In this document: positions 1,771 to 36,773 of the stretch, one piece after another
How positions within the stretch are numbered: the stretch's first letter is position 1
Layout of the letters: every line of letters starts with the position of its first letter
NCBI GenBank assembly: GCA_903844155.1
Contig: CAIMSU010000154.1
Coordinates: 1 to 46,327, forward strand
Direction: 5' to 3'
Source of the DNA: an uncultured Pseudomonadota bacterium
GTDB taxonomy: Bacteria; Myxococcota_A; UBA796; SXON01
DNA length: 46,327 nucleotides
Notes under the pieces: generated by a model
Told to the model about the DNA's origin: nothing
Seen by the model: only the letters and a program-made list of their open reading frames with translations
Database searches by the model: none
Position numbers and translations under genes: made by a program

Positions 1771-3614
1771 TTCACAGCCTCCGCACCGGCGGAGCCCGAC
1801 GGTCGGGCGATGAGCGCCCTCAACCCTGCCGCGGCGCGACCGGACTCGGGATTATGCAGGAGGGCAGAGCGGAAACATGCACGTGCCTCGTCGGCCTGGT
1901 CGGGGCGACGGGCGAGCATCTCCCCGAGGTAGACCAGCGCAAGCTCACACGCCGGGTCCGTACGCAGCGCCATCCGCAGCGCGTCCTCTCCCGCGGTCGG
2001 GTCCTCGGGGCACGCGAGCGACCGTGCCCGACCGAGCAGCGCGAGCACCTCCGGGTCGTCCTGCTCGGCCCGGGCAAGCGCAGCGCCGAACACCGGAAGC
2101 GCGGAGGCGGGATGACCCGAAACGAGCAGGTGACGCCCGTGCTCGGCCAGATCGTCCGGGTGCGAGGTGTCGGGCGGAACGTAGCTCCGGGGCCCGCTGC
2201 GCAGCTGCAGACCACGGAGTCGGCCGTCGTACACTGCCCGTCGCGCCGGGTCGGCGAGGACGCGCGCTGCTTCCTGCACGCGGAGCTGGATCTCCCGCAA
2301 GCGTTGGCGGCTTGGACCATCGAGGGCGTTCGCGGTGGCGCGTTCGATCAGGCGGGTGACACGGTCGAGCGCGCCCGCGATCTCGCGTTCTCCCGCTTGC
2401 GGCCCGATCCCGAGCACGGCGTAGTGGCTCGCGTCCGCCATCAGCCGGTGCTCGGCGACAAGCGCGGCGAGCGAATCCTCGCGGGCATCCTCCTCCGTCT
2501 GCGGCATCCCGCTGTCGACCGCGAGCCGGAGCAGCCCATAAGCATACATCAACCCGAGCAGGCGCTCCGCGGCCGCGCCCTCGGCCAGCAGCTCGGACAT
2601 GGACGCGCCGCTGCCGAGCATGCCCCTGACCCGTCGCAGGGTGCGCTGGGGGTCGAGGTGGTCCCACAGCTCCGGGGTGAACGACGGCGCCGTCGCCCTG
2701 GCCGCCCGGAATCCGGTGCCCGGCAGGACCTCCGAGACGCCGCCGAGCCGCCACTCGATCGCGATCGGGTGCACCTCGAACCCGGCAAAGCCGAGGTTCG
2801 GCGTGGGGATGAGGCGCCAACGCCCTGCCGTCGCCCGCCCGGCGCCGATCACCCGCTGGAGCACCTGTTCGCGGAGCGCTCGCTCTACGCTGACGCGGTC
2901 CAGCATCCCACCCTGAACAAGCCGCTCGCCGAGCGTGAGCGCGATCGCGGCGCCTGGTTCGCCCGGTTGCACCAAAGCATCCACGCGATCCCGAGCCACC
3001 ATCCCCAGCTCGGCCAGGATTGCGCCGAAGCTTGTGCTGAGGTCCGAGGAGCGTGCCGCCGCCGGGTAGCCCTGTTGCAGGTACACGCGCACTGCGAGGC
3101 CCTGCTCCGAGTGCACCTCCAGCGCGCCGGTGAAGTGCTCTCGCCAAAGCCGGCGTAGCAACTCGGGGAGCCAGCCGGCGCTGACGGGTCCCCTTTCGGT
3201 TGCGGAGGCCAGAGCGAGCGGCGGCGAGGTGGCCGAGCGATCCCCCGGGTCGCCCCGACGCCCGACGAGACCGCGCAGCAGCTCGTGCACGACCGCCGGC
3301 GTTGTCGGCTTGGCGACGAACGCGTCCGCGCCGGCCGCGAGCGCCGCCGATTCGGCGTCTGCCCGGGCGGAGGCGACGACGAGCGGCATGGTGGCTGCGT
3401 GCGGTTGAAGTCGGATCTGGGCGCACACCGCCAGGCCGTCCAGCCCCGGAAGGACGAGGTCGGCCAGGACGGCGTCCGGGGGGTCGTCCAACACCGCTCG
3501 CAATGCTGCGACCCCGTCCGCCTCGACCCGGACGGTCCAACCCAATGCCCGGAGCGCATCGCCGAGGACGGCGGCGGCGACCGGGTCATCTTCAAGCAGC
3601 AGCAGGGACGGCAC
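1761..3614 (-). CDS. Receiver/PATAN/degenerate J-domain/TPR regulator
   Basis: A 617-residue protein from a GTG at 3614, chosen because it places [10 protein letters not shown] at the N-terminus exactly where receiver domains begin; the frame is open further upstream but that extension has low complexity. Residues 3-120 are a receiver with acidic pocket E8-D10, phosphoacceptor D52 and K102. Residues 147-290 resemble PATAN/DUF4388. Residues 397-467 look like a J domain (HYAVLGIG at the start, [12 protein letters not shown] at the end), but the HPD tripeptide is absent. Residues 485-600 are TPR-like. Phosphorylation presumably controls the PATAN/TPR scaffold, since no DNA-binding or enzymatic output domain is seen. 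It is the upstream partner of the HPD-containing protein at 367-1770, with which it overlaps by 10 nt. The cognate kinase is not evident. Confidence 0.82.
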
Positions 3615-3841
3615 GCGGTCTCCGGAGCCCGGAGGATATCGCGGTCCGGGGGCCGTTGCCGAGGCTCCGAAAGTACGCAAGGCGGAAGTACCTGAATTCA
3701 CGCGGATACCGTTACGGAGTGCCAGCAGCGTCGGCCTGGGCTGCCGCGACGTTCGGCGGCGTCGAAAATCCTGCGGGCTCCGCGGCTCCCCGGACAATTT
3801 CTGGCAGGGCCGCGTGCTACCTTCGACGAAACGGAGTCATC

Positions 3842-4450
3842 ATGGTCAACAAGGTCATCCTCATCGGCAGGCTCGGGCAGGACCCGGAGGTGCGTTCAAC
3901 CGCGGGCGGGCAGACCGTCGCGAAGCTCAATCTGGCGACCAGCGAAAAGTTCAAGGACAAAGATGGGAATTTGCAGGAGCGGACGGAGTGGCATCGCATC
4001 GTGGTGTGGGGCCGGACCGCCGAAATCGTCCAGCAATACTGCAAGAAGGGCAAGCAGCTCTACATCGAAGGCCGGCTGCAGACGCAGAAGTGGCAGGACA
4101 AAGAAGGGAAGGACCGGTACACCACCGAGATCGTGGCCGACACCGTGAAGTTCCTCGGTGGGGGCGAGGGTGGCGGCGGCGGCGGTGAGGAGGGCGGCGG
4201 TCGCGGCGGCGGCGGTGGCGGCTACGGCGGAGGCGGTCAAGGTGGCGGAGGAGGCCAGGGCGGCGGCCGAGGGAACTACGGCGGCGGTGGCGCTCCACGC
4301 GGGAATTACGGCGGCGGTGACCGGGGCGGACCGTCGGGTGGCGGCGATCGCGGCGGGCCCGCGGGTGGCGGCGATCGCGGCGGGCCGGGTGGGGCCGGCG
4401 GCGGGTTTGACGACGGGCCGATGCCAGGTGATGACGACATCCCGTTCTAG
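3842..4450 (+). CDS. ssb: Single-stranded DNA-binding protein SSB
   Basis: A 202-residue SSB. Residues 1-106 are the OB fold with the family signature [16 protein letters not shown] at the start, then [10 protein letters not shown] and YIEGRLQT. Residues 107-190 form a very glycine-rich linker containing three consecutive GGGDRGGP units, and the protein ends in the acidic tip DDDIPF that recruits replication and repair partners. It binds single-stranded DNA, normally as a tetramer, in replication, repair and recombination. The ATG at 3842 is preceded by ACGGAG at suitable spacing; the frame continues far upstream but without SSB similarity. It is divergent from the receiver gene at 3614 across 227 bp and convergent with the small gene ending at 4458. 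Confidence 0.97.
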
Positions 4451-4457
4451 CGGACCC

Positions 4458-4733
4458 CTACTTCGCCTGCGCCTCGACCTGTTCGCGCAAATCCTCGGTC
4501 ACGAAGTCCAGAAGCGTCGTTGAGAGCTCGATGATCTGCTGGTGAGTGAAGTGTTCCGAGCGGAGGTGCCGGTAGAAGCTGCGGGCGACGGACCGGTTGC
4601 GGTTCTTCAGGAGCTCGTCTTCGGTGCGGGTCGTCGGCGGGAGGGTCACGTGCACAAGGGCCTCAAGGGTTCGGTGGGGGAGTAGCAAGCCGCGTGCCGT
4701 CAAGAGTTCCCGCGGTCGGCTACGCAGAATCAA
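4458..4733 (-). CDS. Small hypothetical helical protein
   Basis: A short protein of up to 91 residues (TTG at 4733), rich in charged residues, ending LLDFVTEDLREQVEAQAK. The C-terminal two thirds (NRSVARSFYRHLRSEHFTHQ onward) have the balanced composition of a real, probably all-helical protein. The first 25 residues are basic and less convincing; a GTG at 4655 with a GAGG upstream would give 65 residues and is an equally good start. It lies 62 bp downstream of the Rossmann protein on the same strand and probably shares its operon. I recognise no family and do not assign a function. Confidence 0.6.
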   Translation of the reverse strand: MILRSRPRELLTARGLLLPHRTLEALVHVTLPPTTRTEDELLKNRNRSVARSFYRHLRSEHFTHQQIIELSTTLLDFVTEDLREQVEAQAK

Positions 4734-4801
4734 GCACTTGCGATTCCGACTGCGTAGTCAGAGCCGCGATCGGGGTGCGCGGGGTGCGTAAGCGACTACG
4801 C
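4720..4801 (-). promoter_or_regulatory. Three complementary arms that could form alternative hairpins
   Basis: CTACGCA (4720-4726), TGCGTAGTC (4751-4759) and GACTACGC (4794-4801) are mutually complementary. The middle arm can pair with either outer arm but not both. On the minus-strand mRNA the first arm contains the TAG stop of the upstream gene, and the third lies just inside the 91-residue reading of the small gene. A ribosome terminating on the first arm would leave arms two and three free to pair around the TTG start. This is inference from complementarity alone. Confidence 0.3.
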
Positions 4802-5440
4802 GCCGCCGATGCCAAATCGGCGGCGAACGCCCCAACGCGCGTCGTCCCAGTCGTCCCCGGGCGGGTCCGGTGGGACCGGGCCGCCTCGCCGCCAACTGGG
4901 GGTGCAGGCTCCGCGCTCGCGCTGGGCGAGGGCGTTGGCGAACGCGCTGCGGTCGAGGAGGGCGGGGCCGCGCACGCGCGTGACCGGGCCGAGGTCCGGG
5001 TCGAGGGCCACACGGGCGACGTCTTCGGCCCAGATCCACCTGCGCTCCGGGAGGTCGCGCGGGATGTGACCGGCCTGCCCGCGGCGCATCGCGTCCAGGA
5101 CGGGCTGGATCGAGCGCTCGTGCAGATCCCAGGCGGGGCCGCAGACGACGGAGGGCGTTCCGGCCACCCCCAGCGGCCCGACCACGACGACCCTGGCGCC
5201 GGGCGGCAGCAGTCCGGTGAGCGCGGCGACGTCGCTGGCCCCCACACAGAGGATGAGACGAGCGGCCCGCGCCCATTCGCTGCGCACGGGGTCCCGGCCG
5301 AGTTCAAAACGCACCCACAGCCCTGCGTGCTGACGTTGGGTGCGCGAAGCGACGATCACCGAGCGGGTCCGGGCCGCCACCCGGGCCACGGCGGCGCCGA
5401 GCACGCCCCCGCCGATCACCACAACGCCGGCCTCAGCCAA
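4796..5440 (-). CDS. Rossmann-fold NAD(P)-binding protein, epimerase/reductase-like
   Basis: A 214-residue protein starting with VVVIGGGVLGAAVARVAA, a dinucleotide-binding glycine motif at the N-terminus. The middle has short beta-alpha units typical of SDR-extended or atypical epimerase-like proteins, but no YxxxK catalytic pair is visible, so dehydrogenase activity cannot be assigned. The start is TTG at 5440, overlapping the end of the PHP gene by 8 nt; a GTG a few codons later would also keep the glycine motif. The C-terminus (from about residue 180) is Pro/Gly-rich and probably disordered. Its position behind a PHP phosphoesterase suggests shared nucleotide- or cofactor-related metabolism, but that is a guess. 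Confidence 0.72.
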   Translation of the reverse strand: MAEAGVVVIGGGVLGAAVARVAARTRSVIVASRTQRQHAGLWVRFELGRDPVRSEWARAARLILCVGASDVAALTGLLPPGARVVVVGPLGVAGTPSVVCGPAWDLHERSIQPVLDAMRRGQAGHIPRDLPERRWIWAEDVARVALDPDLGPVTRVRGPALLDRSAFANALAQRERGACTPSWRRGGPVPPDPPGDDWDDARWGVRRRFGIGGA

Positions 5441-30236: not shown

Positions 30237-32294
30237 CTAATGGAAGAAGAAGACGGCCGCGATCAGGAGGACGACGACCACGGAGAGGCCGCCGACGACG
30301 AGCACATACTGGTCGGACTTGGCCTGCTCCCATGCCCGCGCGAGCGCGGAGGGCTCGCCGGGCGCCGCGGGGAGGCCGTCGCCCTGTTCCTCGTCATCAA
30401 GGTCCTGCACCGGCGCGGTCATCGGATCGGAATTCCAGCCAGCGAGCGGGCGAATCGGGACGTCGTCGTCCTCGGGCTCCGGCGGCGGCGCTTGGCGCGT
30501 AGGCGGGAGGCTGGGGAGCCGAACGACCGGAGCGGGGCGGGCGACGGGAGGCGGCGGGACGTCGTCCTCCTCCTCCAGGTCGTCGTCCGGAACGAGGGTG
30601 AGCGACTGGACGCGGCGAGGGGGCGGGTCGGGGAGAGCCGGGCCTGGCGCAGGCGGGGACGCTGCCACCGTCGCGGTCTTCGGCAGCGGCACAGGGGCAG
30701 GCGCCAGAATCGGGCGGGGCAGGACGGGCGAGGGCGGGGCGGCCGGTACGTTCACAACGGGGCGCGGCGGCTCAATGCGAAGCTGCTCGTTGGCAAAGTC
30801 GAGACGCGGGGCGGCGACTCCGGGTTGGGTTTCGCGGCCGCTCTGCGGACGGGCAGGAACGGGCTCACGTGCGGGGAGGGGCGCCGGTGCCGCGGGCGAT
30901 GGGGCGGGCGCGGGTGCGAGCGATTGCGGGCGGACAACCGTCACAGAGGGCTGCTCACGGCCGAATTCGATGGCGGCGGGCGGCGGCGCGGGCTGCTCGG
31001 GCGGGATCCAGCCGGGGGCGGGGCGGACGAGGAATTCGACCTCCGCGGTCGCCGGTGGCTGGCCGGAATCGCGGATCGCCAATGCGAGGCGGGCCTTGAA
31101 GTTTCCGGGGTACAACCCTTCGATCTTGAACTGGAACCGGTAGCGCCCGGTGGGGTGGCGCTCAGACGTGTAGCTCAGCGGCAGGTCCTTGAGCCGCTCG
31201 CCGGAGAGCGCGTCGAAAACCGCGATGCCTACACCGATTTCCTCGTTCCCCTCGACCCCGGCGGACGCTGCCGCCAGGCAACTGAACGAGACCATCTCGT
31301 CGGTCGTGAACCAGGGCTTGGACGCCGGGCGATCGAGCATCACCTTGCCGACGGACTGCACCTGCGGTCGGATGAGCTGCAGGATCTCCTCGAGCCGGCC
31401 GTGCAGATCCTCGGACTTCGGGAACCGGAACGGCGGCGACGGGGACTGCTCGCGGGAGAGCGCCCGGGACATCAGGATGGCGACGCGCTCTGCCAGGCGG
31501 GCGTGGAAGCGCGGGTTGGAGTCCTCCGTCTTCATCCGGTCGATCACGCGGTCGCGGACGGCCTGGATCGCGCTCTTGTCGAGGCCCTGCCGGGGCGGGT
31601 TCGGAAGCGGCTCGCCGGCGAGGACGCCCTCCCAGAGCATCATCGCGATGGCCCAGGAGTCGCAGCCGGGGTTGATCTGGACGTCTGCAGCGGGGGTGCC
31701 CGCCGACCCGGGGCTGGACTCCGAGATCTCAGGCGGGAACGCTGCGGTATGCGAGGGCGAGGCCGCGAGCATCCGGGTGAGGTTGCGCGGCACGGAGGAG
31801 GTGACCGCGTCGGTCAGAAAAAGTCCGCCGGACTCAGAGATCAGCACGTTCTTCGACCGGAGGTTCCCATGAACGCCGTGGGGGAGCTGGCGGACCAGCT
31901 TCGCGACTGAGAGGAGCGTCTCGACGAGATCCGAGAGGGGCATGCCCTCCGCGATCCTGGACTCCAGCGTGCTCGGGAAATGAGGCAGGATGTAGCCGGT
32001 GTTGTCCGCCGACAGCGACGCGCGGGCCTCAAGCCGCGGCAGGAACGGCTGCTCGGCGTCCCCGTAGAGGCGGGCCTGCTCGAGCACGGCCGCTCGGCTC
32101 GCCGAGATGACGATGTCCGCGAAGGGAAACTCCCCGCGAAAGTCCTCAGCCGTAAGCGGCGCTTTGAGGACGAACATGGCGTCGTCGAACTCACGGCGAA
32201 CGAGAAAGCTCTTTCCCCACAAGCCCCGCCCGAGCCCCGCCCCGACCTGCCAAGCGGTGCCCTGCGTGTCGCGGATGGTGTCGCCGGTTTTCAT
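30237..32294 (-). CDS. Tail-anchored kinase-like protein, HRD motif lost (probable pseudokinase)
   Basis: A 685-residue protein. Residues 13-290 resemble a Ser/Thr protein kinase: glycine loop GAGLGRGLWGKSF (18-30), putative ATP-binding Lys in FVLKAP (K44), catalytic-loop equivalent HGNLRSKN (142-149) where the HRD Asp is Asn144, DFG equivalent TDAV (D162), and CDSWAIAMMLWEG as subdomain IX. The Asn in place of the catalytic Asp implies weak or no phosphotransfer. Residues 340-450 may be a beta-sandwich; about 450-660 is Pro/Ala-rich and disordered; residues 663-684 (LVVGGLSVVVVLLIAAVFFF) are a C-terminal transmembrane helix, so the domain faces the cytoplasm as a tail-anchored protein. ATG at 32294 chosen. 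Divergent from lnt across 59 bp. Confidence 0.83.
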   Translation of the reverse strand: MKTGDTIRDTQGTAWQVGAGLGRGLWGKSFLVRREFDDAMFVLKAPLTAEDFRGEFPFADIVISASRAAVLEQARLYGDAEQPFLPRLEARASLSADNTGYILPHFPSTLESRIAEGMPLSDLVETLLSVAKLVRQLPHGVHGNLRSKNVLISESGGLFLTDAVTSSVPRNLTRMLAASPSHTAAFPPEISESSPGSAGTPAADVQINPGCDSWAIAMMLWEGVLAGEPLPNPPRQGLDKSAIQAVRDRVIDRMKTEDSNPRFHARLAERVAILMSRALSREQSPSPPFRFPKSEDLHGRLEEILQLIRPQVQSVGKVMLDRPASKPWFTTDEMVSFSCLAAASAGVEGNEEIGVGIAVFDALSGERLKDLPLSYTSERHPTGRYRFQFKIEGLYPGNFKARLALAIRDSGQPPATAEVEFLVRPAPGWIPPEQPAPPPAAIEFGREQPSVTVVRPQSLAPAPAPSPAAPAPLPAREPVPARPQSGRETQPGVAAPRLDFANEQLRIEPPRPVVNVPAAPPSPVLPRPILAPAPVPLPKTATVAASPPAPGPALPDPPPRRVQSLTLVPDDDLEEEDDVPPPPVARPAPVVRLPSLPPTRQAPPPEPEDDDVPIRPLAGWNSDPMTAPVQDLDDEEQGDGLPAAPGEPSALARAWEQAKSDQYVLVVGGLSVVVVLLIAAVFFFH

Positions 32295-32353: not shown

Positions 32354-33910
32354 ATGACTCCCTGGCAGCGAACCCTGGCACGCCGATCGATGGCGATCGC
32401 GTCGGCGCTGGTGCTCAACCTCGTCTCGCCGCCGGTGAACCTGGAATGGCTGCACTGGGTGGCCTTCGTGCCCCTGTTCGTCGCCGTCCACGACCTTGAT
32501 CGGAAGGCGGCGTTTCGGCTCGGGTATCTCTGCGGATTCACGGCGGTCCTGACGCTCTTCCACTGGCTCGCGCTCACCATCCACGTCTTTGGTGAGCTCC
32601 CGCTCGTTCTCGCCATCGCCATCCTCGCGCTGTTCGCCTCGGTCTTCGGGCTCCCGTACGGCCTGATGATCCAGTTTCTTCCGGCGATGCGTCGGCGGTT
32701 CGGTGCGTGGTGGATCCCGCTGTTCGCGTGCGTGTGGGTCATGGCCGAGCGGCTCCAGCCCGCCTTGTTCCCGTACTACCAGGGGGTCGGCCAGTACCGG
32801 TCGCCCTGGGTCTGGCAGCTCGCGAGCGTTTTTGGGAGCATGGGCGTCAGCTTTCTGGTGATCGGCGTCAACGCGTGCGTAACCGAGCTGGTGCTGACGC
32901 GCGGGCGGGTGTGGAAGCCGATGGCGGTCTTCGCGACCCTGTTCCTCGCCAACCTTGGTTTTGGCGCTCGCCGCCATGCGAACCTGGCGCTCGGGGATGC
33001 GTCCGCGCGGGACTTTCGGGTCAGCCTCCTGCAGGAGGGCGTGACGATGCAGACGCGCCTCTACGATCGCGGCGAGGTCGTGGTGAAGAGCTGGTTTGAC
33101 ATCACGCACAAGGTCGTCGCGCAGCATCCCGAGCTGGTGGTCTGGCCGGAGGGGGCATTCTTCTACAACCCCACCGACCCGGAGCTGGAGCCGTACCTCG
33201 CCAAGCTGGCGAAGAACGGGAACTTCGCGATCCTGATGGGTGCGGGCACGCACGATGAGCACGAGGACGGCACCCGCACGGACTGGAATTCCGCCTACAT
33301 GTTCGACCACACCGGCACGATCGTAGGTCGGTACGACAAGCTCTACCCGCTGCCGTTTGGCGAGTACATGCCCTGGCCGACAACGTACCTCCGCCAGTTC
33401 ATCGCCAGCGTGGGCGACTTCCGGGCGGGCACGCAGCTCCACGTTTTCGAGGTTGACGGCGTCAAGTTCTCGACGCCGATATGCTACGAGGCCATCCTCG
33501 ACGGGCTCATGCGCGACATGGGGACGGGGGCGGACCTCTACATCAACATCACGAACGATGCGTGGTTTGGCGACACTGCTGCGCCCCATCAGCACGCCAT
33601 GCTCGCCGCCGCCCAGGCGATGGAGAACGGGCGTCCGATGGTGCGTATCGCGTATACGGGCATCTCGATGGTCGTGATGCCGAACGGCGACATCACCCAC
33701 TACTCAAAGCCCTACACCGAGGTCGCGGAGGTCGCCGACGTGCCGATCAATCCCGTCGAGACGATCTATCGGCAGGGCGGCTGGATTTTCCCCTGGCTCT
33801 GTGCGGCGGTCGGCGCCGGTGCCCTCGCCCAGCTCTGGCTGGACGCGCGCCGAATGCCCCTCGCGGTGCCAGAACGGGCCGCTGTCACACCTGCGCCCCC
33901 TTCCGCGTAG
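32354..33910 (+). CDS. lnt: Apolipoprotein N-acyltransferase Lnt
   Basis: A 518-residue inner-membrane enzyme. The first 205 residues contain several hydrophobic segments (for example VLAIAILALFASVFGLPYGL) forming the membrane part; the rest is a nitrilase-fold domain in the periplasm. The catalytic triad is E266 (VVWPEGAF), K329 (GRYDKLYPLPFGEYMP) and C377 (TPICYEAI). Lnt transfers an acyl chain from phosphatidylethanolamine to the N-terminal Cys of lipoproteins, the last maturation step. The ATG at 32354 precedes a basic N-terminus. It lies 12 bp upstream of the ECF sigma gene, so it is probably the head of the operon with sigma, membrane protein and caspase, linking lipoprotein maturation with envelope regulation. 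Confidence 0.94.
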   Translation: MTPWQRTLARRSMAIASALVLNLVSPPVNLEWLHWVAFVPLFVAVHDLDRKAAFRLGYLCGFTAVLTLFHWLALTIHVFGELPLVLAIAILALFASVFGLPYGLMIQFLPAMRRRFGAWWIPLFACVWVMAERLQPALFPYYQGVGQYRSPWVWQLASVFGSMGVSFLVIGVNACVTELVLTRGRVWKPMAVFATLFLANLGFGARRHANLALGDASARDFRVSLLQEGVTMQTRLYDRGEVVVKSWFDITHKVVAQHPELVVWPEGAFFYNPTDPELEPYLAKLAKNGNFAILMGAGTHDEHEDGTRTDWNSAYMFDHTGTIVGRYDKLYPLPFGEYMPWPTTYLRQFIASVGDFRAGTQLHVFEVDGVKFSTPICYEAILDGLMRDMGTGADLYINITNDAWFGDTAAPHQHAMLAAAQAMENGRPMVRIAYTGISMVVMPNGDITHYSKPYTEVAEVADVPINPVETIYRQGGWIFPWLCAAVGAGALAQLWLDARRMPLAVPERAAVTPAPPSA

Positions 33911-33922
33911 TGGCTTTGGAGC

Positions 33923-34462
33923 GTGCGGGTGCCACAAGGCGTCACTGACCCCACCGATGAGGAGCTGATGGAGCAGGTGCAGGCCGGCAACGAACCCGCG
34001 TTCAACGCGCTGTTCGAGCGACACCGCGCCCCGCTCTATGGGTTCGTGCTGCGCATGACGCGCGAGGAGGCGGCCGCCGAGGACTGCTTCCAGGACGCCT
34101 TCCTGTCGGTGCATCGGGCGCGGTCGACGTGGTCGCGCGCCGCCGGGACGTTTCGTTCCTGGCTCTTCCGGATCGCCGCCAACGCGGTGCGGGATCACCA
34201 GCGTCGGCAGTTTCGCCGCCCGTTGTTGTTGACGGGGGAGGACCTGCCGCTGCCCATTCGCGACTGGCCGGAGGAGCGCATCGAGCTTGAACGCGCGCTG
34301 GCGCAGCTCGCCCCACACTTGCGGGAGGCGTTCCTGCTCGGCGCCATGCACGGGATGGACCACGTGGAATTGGCGGAGGCGCTGGAGATCTCGCCGGACA
34401 ATGCGCGCGCCCGCCTTTCTCGGGCGCGGGTCCAGCTCCGGCAGATCCTGGGGGGCTCGTGA
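33923..34462 (+). CDS. ECF-type RNA polymerase sigma factor
   Basis: A 179-residue group 4 sigma factor. Region 2 spans about 26-98 (FNALFERHRAPLYGFVLRMT, then EDCFQDAFLSVHRARSTW and FRSWLFRIAANAVRDHQRR), for core binding and -10 recognition. Region 4 spans about 118-176 with the helix-turn-helix ELAEALEISPDNARARLSR. No domain is added. The start is GTG at 33923, with GGAG 4 nt upstream. It overlaps the next gene by 4 nt (GTGA), which is usual for a sigma and its cognate membrane anti-sigma. The operon lnt/sigma/membrane protein/caspase suggests an envelope-stress or cell-fate regulon. Confidence 0.93.
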   Translation: MRVPQGVTDPTDEELMEQVQAGNEPAFNALFERHRAPLYGFVLRMTREEAAAEDCFQDAFLSVHRARSTWSRAAGTFRSWLFRIAANAVRDHQRRQFRRPLLLTGEDLPLPIRDWPEERIELERALAQLAPHLREAFLLGAMHGMDHVELAEALEISPDNARARLSRARVQLRQILGGS

Positions 34463-35142
34463 CCCCAGCGGACCGTCGCCGCGCGCTCAGCCTCGTCGAG
34501 GACGATGCTTTTGACGCGGCCTTTGGTCGGCTCGACCTCCCGGGTCGTGACGCCGCGCATTGGCGCCTCCTCGCAGACGCCGTCGCCGAGGATCGGCACG
34601 GGTCCGGCGCCGTCGCCGCGCTTCCGCCGCTCGCGATCGCGCCCCCCGCTCGCCTCGTCGCCCCGCGGGTTTCCCGCCCGCACCGCTGGCTGCGGCCGGC
34701 TGCGGTGGCGTCGGGGCTCGCGTTCGCGGCGGTCGTGCTTTTTGCCGTTCATACGCCCGATCACGGGGATCCGGCGTTGCTCGTCCCCAAGGGCGTTGGC
34801 GTTGGCGTGGTGCTTCAGGCGCCGCTCGATCTGGCTGTGGCCGTGAAAACGCCCGCGGGGACAGCGCGCCTCGACCCCAACACCGCGTACGATGTGGGCG
34901 ATACACTCGTGTTTCAGGTCACCCTCCCTACACCCGCCACCGTTGAGCTCCGCCGGTCCGCCGGCGCGGGCGATGGGGTGGTGCTCTGGCGCGGTGACCT
35001 CGCGGCGGGCCAGCAAACCATTCCCGCGGGCTACGCGCTCGATCCCGGCGATGGAACTGCCCGTTTCGTCGTGACCGCGACCACTGTGGACGGGCCCGCC
35101 GTCGGCACGGTTACCGTCCTCGCTCCCCGGGCTTCCCCATGA
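34459..35142 (+). CDS. Single-pass membrane protein, candidate anti-sigma factor
   Basis: A 227-residue protein whose GTG at 34459 overlaps the sigma stop (GTGA). Residues 1-50 are cytoplasmic and helical (RRALSLVEDDAFDAAFGRLD), residues 77-98 (WLRPAAVASGLAFAAVVLFA) form one transmembrane helix, and the rest is a periplasmic region with beta-rich segments (LVFQVTLPTPATVELRRS) resembling an Ig-like or DUF4384-type module. Position and topology match anti-sigma factors, but no HxxxCxxC zinc motif is present, so this is inference. Alternatively it may tether the caspase. Its last codons overlap the caspase start (ATGA). Confidence 0.68.
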   Translation: MTPADRRRALSLVEDDAFDAAFGRLDLPGRDAAHWRLLADAVAEDRHGSGAVAALPPLAIAPPARLVAPRVSRPHRWLRPAAVASGLAFAAVVLFAVHTPDHGDPALLVPKGVGVGVVLQAPLDLAVAVKTPAGTARLDPNTAYDVGDTLVFQVTLPTPATVELRRSAGAGDGVVLWRGDLAAGQQTIPAGYALDPGDGTARFVVTATTVDGPAVGTVTVLAPRASP

Positions 35143-36773
35143 CCACGCGATCGAACCTGTTTCGGGCTGTAGTCGTGGTTGCAGGCGTAGTGTTTGTCGC
35201 GCCTGCCGCACGCGCCGCGGTCGTGCCCGTCGACAGCGCCACGGAGACCAGCGCCCAGAAGGCACTCGCACCGCGGCGAATCGCGCTCCTGATCGGTGTG
35301 CAGGACTACGCGGACCCGGCGCTGGCGGGCCTGAAGTACCCGGACAAGGACGCGGAGGACCTCGGCGCCGTGCTGCAAAGCCCCACTCTCGGCGGCTTTG
35401 ACCAGGTTTTTGTCGTCCACGGCGAGGCAGCGACCACGTCCGCCGCCATTACCCACGCGTTTGAGGTCGCGACCGCCAACCTCGGCCGGGAAGACACCTT
35501 CGTCCTGTATCTTTCCGGCCACGGAACGCTCACGCTGGACCCGCTGGGCAGCCGCCTCTGGTTCCTGCCCTCCGATGCGAAGGTCGACTCGCCGGAGACG
35601 ACCGGCCTCGCCGTCGCCGATCTGGAAAAACTCGTTGACAACCTGCCGTCCCGCCGGCGCGTCCTCATCCTCGATACGTGCCACAACGGGCGCGGGCGCT
35701 CGACGATCGGCTCCGCGACGTCGCAACTGCTGACAGGCATGCGCGGCGAGATCCCCGCGCCGCGTGATGTCCGGGACGTCTCCGAGTCCGAGGCGAGGCT
35801 CTACGCCGCGCAGTACTACCAGCCCGCGATGGAGGATTCGACGCTGGGAAACGGCGTCTACACGCACTTTCTCATCGAGGCGCTCACGACCGGCAATGCC
35901 GACCTCGACGGCGACGGCTTGGTGGACGTTGCCGAGGCCCACGAGTACGCGCGCGACAAGACGATCGCGTGGACGCAGGGAGTACAGGTTCCCCGTGCCG
36001 AATACAAGATCGTCGGCCGGGAGGACATCTACCTTAGCGGCTCCTCGACCCTGCGCGGTCGAGCCGAGCGCGCGCTCGTCAGCGCCACGGACACGTTGCT
36101 GCATCAAGCGACGCTGCTCGTGAACGGCACGCCGCGCGGCGTACTCCCGGGCTTATACGCCGTCGATCCGGGCGCCGAGCACATCCAGGTGCAGACCACC
36201 GACGGCCACCCGGTCCTCGACGAGCACGTGACCGTGAAAGCCGGCGAGACCTTGTCGGTCGAGGCTCTGTTGCGCCGCAAGCGGTCGGGCTGGGAGGTGC
36301 TCGGTGGAGCCGATGTGGCTGGAATGACCGGGTTTTCGCCGCTCGCGCCGTCCGCGGAGCTCGTGTGGGTGCGCCCGGGCGCGTTCACGACCGCGCGCCT
36401 GCGGCCCGACCTGCACCTTGGCGGCAGCGCGGTGAACGGGCTCATCGACGGTGAGCCGATGCTGACGGGCGACGGTTGGGCCGGCGCGACGCTCGCGTGG
36501 AACCCGGGCGCGCTTTATCTTGGACCAAGCGTCGATCTTCGCGTTCCCTTCCGCACGCTCGCACCGACGGCCGCGCTTCCCGATGGCTGGCACGAGGCCG
36601 GCGTCGCTGGAACGGGCGGCCTGACGCTCGGTGTCAGCGTGCCGACGCGGTGGATTGTAGGCGGCGAAAGCCACCTTGCGCTGCGCGCCGACGGCTGGGG
36701 TGGCGGGATGCCGTACCTTGGCGCGTGGACGCCCATCTGGGGCGTGGGCGTGAGGGTGGGCGTGGGCGGGTAG
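35139..36773 (+). CDS. Exported caspase-like (C14) protease with PEGA-like and C-terminal beta-rich region
   Basis: A 544-residue protein. Residues 1-26 (MTTRSNLFRAVVVVAGVVFV then APAARA) are a Sec signal peptide, so the caspase fold is exported. Residues 44-300 form a caspase-like domain: RIALLIGVQDYADPALAGL, then catalytic H128 in LYLSGHGT and C181 in LDTCHNGRG. Between them a DGDGLVD loop at 257-263 suggests a calcium site. Residues 318-378 resemble a PEGA domain (LLVNGTPRGVLPGLYAVDPG). Residues 385-544 are beta-rich with alternating aromatic and Gly residues and end GVGVRVGVGG, possibly a small barrel or surface-contact region. Start ATG at 35139 overlaps the membrane-protein stop (ATGA). 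Caspase-like proteases in bacteria are often tied to cell death or proteolytic activation; a periplasmic one beside an ECF sigma is unusual. Confidence 0.87.
   Translation: MTTRSNLFRAVVVVAGVVFVAPAARAAVVPVDSATETSAQKALAPRRIALLIGVQDYADPALAGLKYPDKDAEDLGAVLQSPTLGGFDQVFVVHGEAATTSAAITHAFEVATANLGREDTFVLYLSGHGTLTLDPLGSRLWFLPSDAKVDSPETTGLAVADLEKLVDNLPSRRRVLILDTCHNGRGRSTIGSATSQLLTGMRGEIPAPRDVRDVSESEARLYAAQYYQPAMEDSTLGNGVYTHFLIEALTTGNADLDGDGLVDVAEAHEYARDKTIAWTQGVQVPRAEYKIVGREDIYLSGSSTLRGRAERALVSATDTLLHQATLLVNGTPRGVLPGLYAVDPGAEHIQVQTTDGHPVLDEHVTVKAGETLSVEALLRRKRSGWEVLGGADVAGMTGFSPLAPSAELVWVRPGAFTTARLRPDLHLGGSAVNGLIDGEPMLTGDGWAGATLAWNPGALYLGPSVDLRVPFRTLAPTAALPDGWHEAGVAGTGGLTLGVSVPTRWIVGGESHLALRADGWGGGMPYLGAWTPIWGVGVRVGVGG

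Follow-up and report, generated by a model that had tools for sequence, protein, structure and literature searches.

To our knowledge, little has been established about what bacterial caspase homologues cleave in nature. A 2012 survey found four of the five Myxococcus xanthus metacaspases in operons with sigma-70 genes, reported further sigma-70/metacaspase operons in Anaeromyxobacter, Haliangium, Sorangium, Ralstonia, and Fibrobacter, and left many metacaspase operons without a function (Asplund-Samuelsson et al., 2012; PMC3501461). The locus that we describe resembles these operons in that a caspase homologue and a sigma-70 gene lie in one predicted operon that is repeated within the genome. 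Given that precedent, the statement in the original prediction that this was "not a system I can name" does not hold. The text of the 2012 paper (PMC3501461), with which we compare our locus by description only, mentions neither an anti-sigma partner nor an outer-membrane barrel, and neither a promoter nor a cleavage site.

The locus also shares features with other systems. Like SigmaE-RseA-DegS/RseP, it combines an ECF sigma factor with a candidate one-transmembrane (TM) anti-sigma factor carrying a predicted periplasmic domain, a candidate periplasmic site-1 cleavage position near the membrane, and a site-2 protease candidate in the genome. However, the site-1 protease of the SigmaE system is an inner-membrane serine protease, while the candidate here is an outer-membrane caspase encoded in the same operon. 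As in FecA-FecR-FecI, an outer-membrane protein, an inner-membrane anti-sigma factor, and an ECF sigma would form one unit, but the outer-membrane protein of that system is a TonB-dependent receptor rather than an eight-stranded barrel with a protease domain. Since no TonB-dependent receptor is part of the conserved unit, the locus falls outside the FecA-FecR-FecI type. With the MALT1 paracaspase and metacaspases, the protein shares a caspase fold and an expected basic P1 residue, but it is bacterial and, by prediction, exported and membrane-anchored, has low sequence identity to them, and lacks adaptor domains. Among reported peptides, MALT1 prefers LVPR and tolerates only Gly at P1′ (PMC6207715); the candidate site in sister species, LVPR-G, matches this preferred peptide, and the site in our sequence is LVPK-G.

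In our literature search, which covered only a minority of subscription papers, no publication connected bacterial caspases with anti-sigma factors or with outer-membrane barrels. We found no description of the barrel, the anti-sigma assignment, the promoter, or the shared site; the sigma-70/metacaspase operon pairing has been known since 2012.

A sigma factor, a membrane protein, and a caspase form the conserved unit

Within the window (the whole 46,327-nucleotide stretch of DNA analyzed), the features are as follows.

32354..33910, + strand: lnt, apolipoprotein N-acyltransferase (TIGR00546); not counted as a functional part of the cassette
33883..33910, + strand: predicted ECF promoter, TGTCACA-N16-CGTAG (motif match, spacer conservation)
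33929..34462, + strand: ECF sigma factor gene, GTG start (Sigma70_r2, Sigma70_r4_2)
34459..35142, + strand: gene for the putative membrane anti-sigma factor (structure model, zf-HC2 relatives, [KR]-G linker)
35139..36773, + strand: exported caspase gene (Pfam, orthologue alignment, structure model)

All four genes of the coupled order proposed earlier are present, with 4-nt overlaps between the sigma and membrane protein genes and between the membrane protein and caspase genes. The identity of lnt is secure (TIGR00546, 248 bits against a cut-off of 133; NCBIfam). The sigma gene could start at 33923 or 33929, and the GTG at 33929, which has GGAG 7 nt upstream (33918-33921), appears the better start. 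With this start, the gap between lnt and sigma is 18 bp; the close linkage noted earlier stands, but not the spacing of 12 bp.

The order lnt, sigma, membrane protein, caspase was found in 25 genomes including the window's, spanning four families (19 genomes of the window's family and six of families f4, f5, and f6), with protein identities of roughly 40-87%. In four further genomes, the cassette region is interrupted by contig ends. Judged from these genomes, the conservation of gene order is far beyond chance, and its presence in 24 related genomes removes the concern that the linkage might be confined to one. Caspase orthologues (49-79% identity) are found across the window's family; elsewhere in the order, parts of other families have them. 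Trios of more distant paralogues (roughly 30-42% identity) are also found in the order and class. Their genes, for a sigma, a membrane protein, and a caspase, mostly overlap or nearly so, and a genome can hold up to three sets; lnt is never present. Since the trio recurs without lnt, gene order indicates that the functional unit is the sigma/anti-sigma/caspase trio. Thus, the four-gene order is kept in relatives as anticipated, but the conserved unit is smaller.

Synteny also accounts for the position of lnt. In most sister genera, the order is dnaK (divergent), groES, groEL, a crotonase-type gene (ech), lnt, sigma, anti-sigma, caspase, and a lipoprotein gene whose product has HYDIN-type Ig and vWA-like parts (the latter judged by eye). 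groEL, the crotonase-type gene, and lnt occur together in many cassette-free genomes, and lnt follows groEL or the crotonase-type gene without the cassette at six loci (L131, L132, L135, L139, L140, and L143). Conversely, genome G057 (L109) has the trio, with lnt on another contig after groESL. G013 belongs to the genus of G009 and G011; there, lnt lies tail to tail with the next gene, gene968, and the four-gene block is absent. lnt and the trio have been relocated as one block in the window's genus, where the closest relative of the lipoprotein lies 3′ of dnaK-dnaJ. As lnt is present without the cassette and absent from paralogous trios, we rejected it as a functional partner. It is, on this synteny, an ancestral groESL-ech-lnt neighbor that carries the cassette promoter in its last codons, and the tie to lipoprotein acylation suggested by the original prediction is not supported.

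Several neighboring genes were noted in passing. In the window's own genome, a HYDIN-type Ig/vWA-like lipoprotein gene lies 18 bp after dnaK-dnaJ (L155, 3718-5232; G000:C323). Divergent to lnt in the window, positions 30237-32294 encode a degenerate kinase-like domain protein with a C-terminal TM; this gene and an adjacent leucyl aminopeptidase gene are conserved beside the cassette in the window's genus only. At L123 (G016), tandem lnt genes (1784-3301 and 3384-4937), about 41% and 53% identical to the window's, precede the cassette.

The sigma factor and a predicted autoregulatory promoter

The sigma protein matches Sigma70_r2 (1.5e-16) and Sigma70_r4_2 (3e-12) in Pfam. As it is short, with regions 2 and 4 only, and has an ECF-type promoter upstream, it belongs to the ECF sigma factors, and the earlier assignment is borne out by Pfam and NCBIfam profiles. 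Every lnt-linked cassette with sufficient contig has the sigma gene immediately 5′ of that for the anti-sigma.

TGTCACA or CGTCACA, a spacer, and CGTA were found 5′ of sigma in 33 loci (about 27 distinct). The spacer was exactly 16 bp in 32 of the 33, including loci where lnt is absent or more distant. In the window, the pattern has one match against 0.01 expected, and the promoter is inside the end of lnt, whose stop codon, TAG (33908-33910), falls within the -10 element. Where lnt is more distant (L107, L110, and L128) or not adjacent (L109), the motif is still found upstream of sigma; it is absent from the cassette-free L131. The motif is most simply read as autoregulation of the operon by its own sigma. 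A search of the 8.1 Mb genome for further targets gave five matches to the strict pattern, about the number that we estimate by chance from base composition. None of the other four is upstream of a gene in the right orientation, and we claim no further target.

The -35 sequence TGTCACA and the 16-bp spacer are also found in ECF41 promoters, although the -10 element of those promoters is CGTC rather than CGTA (PMC3426412). ECF41 sigma factors are defined by a large C-terminal extension (PMC3426412), which is regulatory. Since the sigma factors here are 177-179 amino acids long (177 in the window), with region 4 ending at residue 172 and no such extension, we rejected ECF41 membership. In place of the extension, the cassette encodes a membrane anti-sigma candidate.

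The caspase carries a predicted outer-membrane barrel

The caspase consists of a signal peptide (residues about 1-26), a caspase domain (45-296), a PEGA-like region (325-366), and a barrel (379-544). The match to Peptidase_C14 in Pfam is clear (8e-14; 52.3 bits against a cut-off of 21.4), while the score of 104.4 bits against EACC1-associated caspases (NF047832) is under the curated cut-off of 140 and places the protein outside that family. Many of the features proposed at the outset held up: the H128/C181 dyad is invariant in the orthologue alignment, the EF-hand-like loop D255-D263 (the calcium-type loop) is conserved, and orthologues with a complete start carry an N-terminal signal-like sequence. 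The predicted export stands, and the refuting possibility of a cytoplasmic protein made from an alternative start was not borne out. The PEGA-like assignment, also proposed earlier, is plausible but below the Pfam threshold (E 0.2-0.3 in relatives).

The C-terminal region, described at first as beta-rich, is beta but appears in the structure model as an eight-stranded outer-membrane barrel. Residues 379-544, with pLDDT about 85, form eight long strands (384-543); the caspase domain of the same model, built on nine sequences, has low confidence (mostly pLDDT 30-79). By VIA, the barrel resembles OmpA, NspA, and OmpW (Z 15-17), with the closest similarity to NspA (Z 16.9; 146 residues, 2.9 A) and OmpA (Z 16.4; 152 residues, 2.5 A), and the closest solved fold to the caspase region is MALT1 (Z 12.2). 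Thus, by prediction, the protein has both the signal sequence and the C-terminal eight-strand fold of this class of outer-membrane proteins. Known eight-stranded barrels have both termini facing the periplasm. Because of the signal sequence and C-terminal barrel, the caspase appears to be an outer-membrane-anchored protease, and because both termini of such barrels face the periplasm, we infer that the protease domain is periplasmic. Of the two locations first considered, the periplasm is expected and surface exposure is unlikely, since a domain preceding an eight-stranded barrel should be on the periplasmic side. From kinship to MALT1 and metacaspases and from the conserved [KR]-G described below, a preference for basic P1 residues is expected.

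Many paralogous caspases end in typical barrel signals (for example, GLELGF), and several have lipobox signal sequences. Barrels in the paralogous clades are inferred from length and terminal residues only, and profile comparison of barrels across clades was weak. At L075, L076, L081, L085, L086, and L092, class-level paralogous caspases have both lipobox-type signal sequences and barrel-like terminal strands; these may be both lipidated and barrel-anchored.

The middle protein resembles a one-TM anti-sigma factor

The structure model of the middle protein has three short N-terminal helices (residues 3-47), a TM (from about residue 76 to 96-98), a disordered linker, and an Ig-like sandwich (120-223), the last predicted with confidence. 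The window protein has no Pfam domain. HX3CX2C zinc fingers are present at the N-terminus of homologues encoded at the corresponding place in other cassettes (L074, L088, L089, L091, L093, L096, L099, L110, and L128), and Pfam zf-HC2 was detected in 3 of 22 homologues (best 3.6e-6). The window protein lacks the HX3CX2C motif and has no cysteine at all. It has the general features of one-TM anti-sigma factors: a gene directly after that of an ECF sigma, a helical cytoplasmic part, one TM, and an outer domain. Since its relatives carry zf-HC2 zinc fingers, it is best read as an anti-sigma factor with a decayed zinc site that would bind and inhibit the sigma, in agreement with the role first suggested. 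Foldseek returned nothing better than 2e-3 for this protein, and VIA only generic Ig/FnIII folds (Z near 8-9), so we call the outer domain Ig-like and nothing more. DUF4384, a single weak match for that domain (0.048), was rejected.

A basic-Gly site is shared by the anti-sigma and caspase linkers

Alignment of 22 diverse anti-sigmas revealed a single invariant residue, G112, usually preceded by Lys or Arg. It falls within the disordered linker, 11-15 residues beyond the outer end of the TM. The window site is LVPK111-G112. Under automatic labels, with small errors left in the counts (L094 has GVKG if the TM is placed correctly, and L067 ends at a contig end), a [KR]-G pair follows the TM within 40 residues in 48 of the 57 anti-sigmas, while 1000 shuffles gave a mean of 23 and a maximum of 36. 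Within +8 to +20, [KR]-G occurs in 43/57 anti-sigmas compared to 16/67 other one-TM proteins of the same loci, which served as the control because the caspase-free zinc-finger anti-sigmas formed too small and heterogeneous a set. This difference (Fisher 1e-8) is uncorrected for kinship, and since orthologues are not independent, the site statistics overstate confidence. In the orthologous clade, all 27 anti-sigmas have [KR]-G in this interval. The site supports the earlier proposal that the protease could cleave the anti-sigma at a basic residue.

A similar site is present in the caspase. R202-G203, in the intersubunit linker, is invariant in orthologues; this linker is where caspases undergo self-processing. 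The two partners mostly have the same residue type (R/R in the DTCHNG clade and K/K in the ATCHSG clade), and both proteins of the zinc-finger clade have Lys-Gly, although this matching rests on about six clades. The orthologous clade has Arg-Gly in both proteins with two exceptions on the anti-sigma side, L110 and the window (K/R). The cassettes L195 and L200, found later by a looser search, have K-G in both proteins. However, about ten anti-sigmas of the more distant paralogues lack [KR]-G, and most of the DACF/DACY clade has no such site in the caspase linker; the mechanism may thus be of limited generality.

A model for caspase-dependent sigma release

A model that accommodates these observations is that the inner-membrane anti-sigma holds the ECF sigma, while the exported caspase, held in the outer membrane through its C-terminal barrel, would extend its protease domain into the periplasm. 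On a signal in the periplasm or at the outer membrane, the caspase would become active, probably with self-cleavage at R202-G203. It would then cut the flexible linker of the anti-sigma after K111, close to the outer face of the inner membrane, and a site-2 protease, for which the window's genome contains a candidate, would complete release of the sigma. The freed sigma would then transcribe its own operon from TGTCACA-N16-CGTA, giving more caspase and positive feedback. We give a probability of roughly 0.5 to this reading, a self-contained envelope-to-transcription switch that assigns to the caspase the site-1 cleavage of its own putative anti-sigma. The narrower claim, of an autoregulated sigma, anti-sigma, and outer-membrane caspase, is quite likely. 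The broadest form, in which outer-membrane-anchored caspases are dedicated site-1 proteases of their own anti-sigmas, with a MALT1-like basic-Gly site that co-evolves with the caspase processing site, in a new trans-envelope switch spread through Myxococcota, is tentative, and we lean slightly against it.

The chief rival is that the caspase is output only, such that a conventional site-1 protease frees the sigma and the induced caspase acts on other envelope proteins in remodeling, cell death, defense, or predation. This would explain a caspase gene in the sigma operon behind a sigma-type promoter; expansion to as many as three paralogues per genome suits effectors, and one large paralogue clade lacks the caspase-linker site. 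We nonetheless find it unlikely, as it explains the operon but not the sites: it accounts neither for the basic-Gly in every orthologous anti-sigma linker (27/27) nor for an anti-sigma residue type that tracks that of the caspase linker. Those same sites, with the operon pairing and a barrel that would put the caspase within reach across the periplasm, could instead mean that the anti-sigma linker is an inhibitor, its basic-Gly loop occupying the active site of the caspase like a pseudo-substrate and linking both membranes until a signal separates them. Nothing specific favors inhibition over cleavage, however, and an invariant P1′ Gly in a disordered linker resembles a cleavable site, making this improbable.

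Least credible is the first proposal, that the system senses or serves lipoprotein acylation with lnt as a functional member. lnt is directly upstream in the 25 genomes and, in the window's genus, was relocated along with the cassette, and a lipoprotein gene is 3′ of the caspase in most sister genera. Against this, lnt keeps its place after groEL or the crotonase-type gene where there is no cassette, paralogous trios do without it, the L109 cassette retains its promoter without it, and the promoter separates sigma from lnt.

If the caspase is the site-1 protease, caspase-type proteolysis would control transcription across the bacterial envelope. The conserved Lys/Arg-Gly site would give a concrete, testable role to a bacterial caspase class of largely unknown function, as the locus names a candidate substrate, a likely cut site, a compartment, and an output promoter, all testable with small constructs.

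Additional caspase sets in related genomes

The window's own genome contains a second, divergent cassette-like set (L104, 5792-8972; G000:C198), consisting of an upstream 211-aa gene (candidate sigma), a gene for a one-TM protein whose helix is followed by HLKG, and one for a caspase whose linker contains RRKG. It also encodes a pseudo-caspase that has lost both catalytic residues (VGEG, DAAHEG; L105, 6982-8076; G000:C109), with matches of similar length in G001 and G002. At L075 (1301-7462; G267:C102), two complete sigma/anti-sigma/caspase sets lie in direct tandem; one anti-sigma has LTPRG after the TM, and the other has no basic-Gly site.
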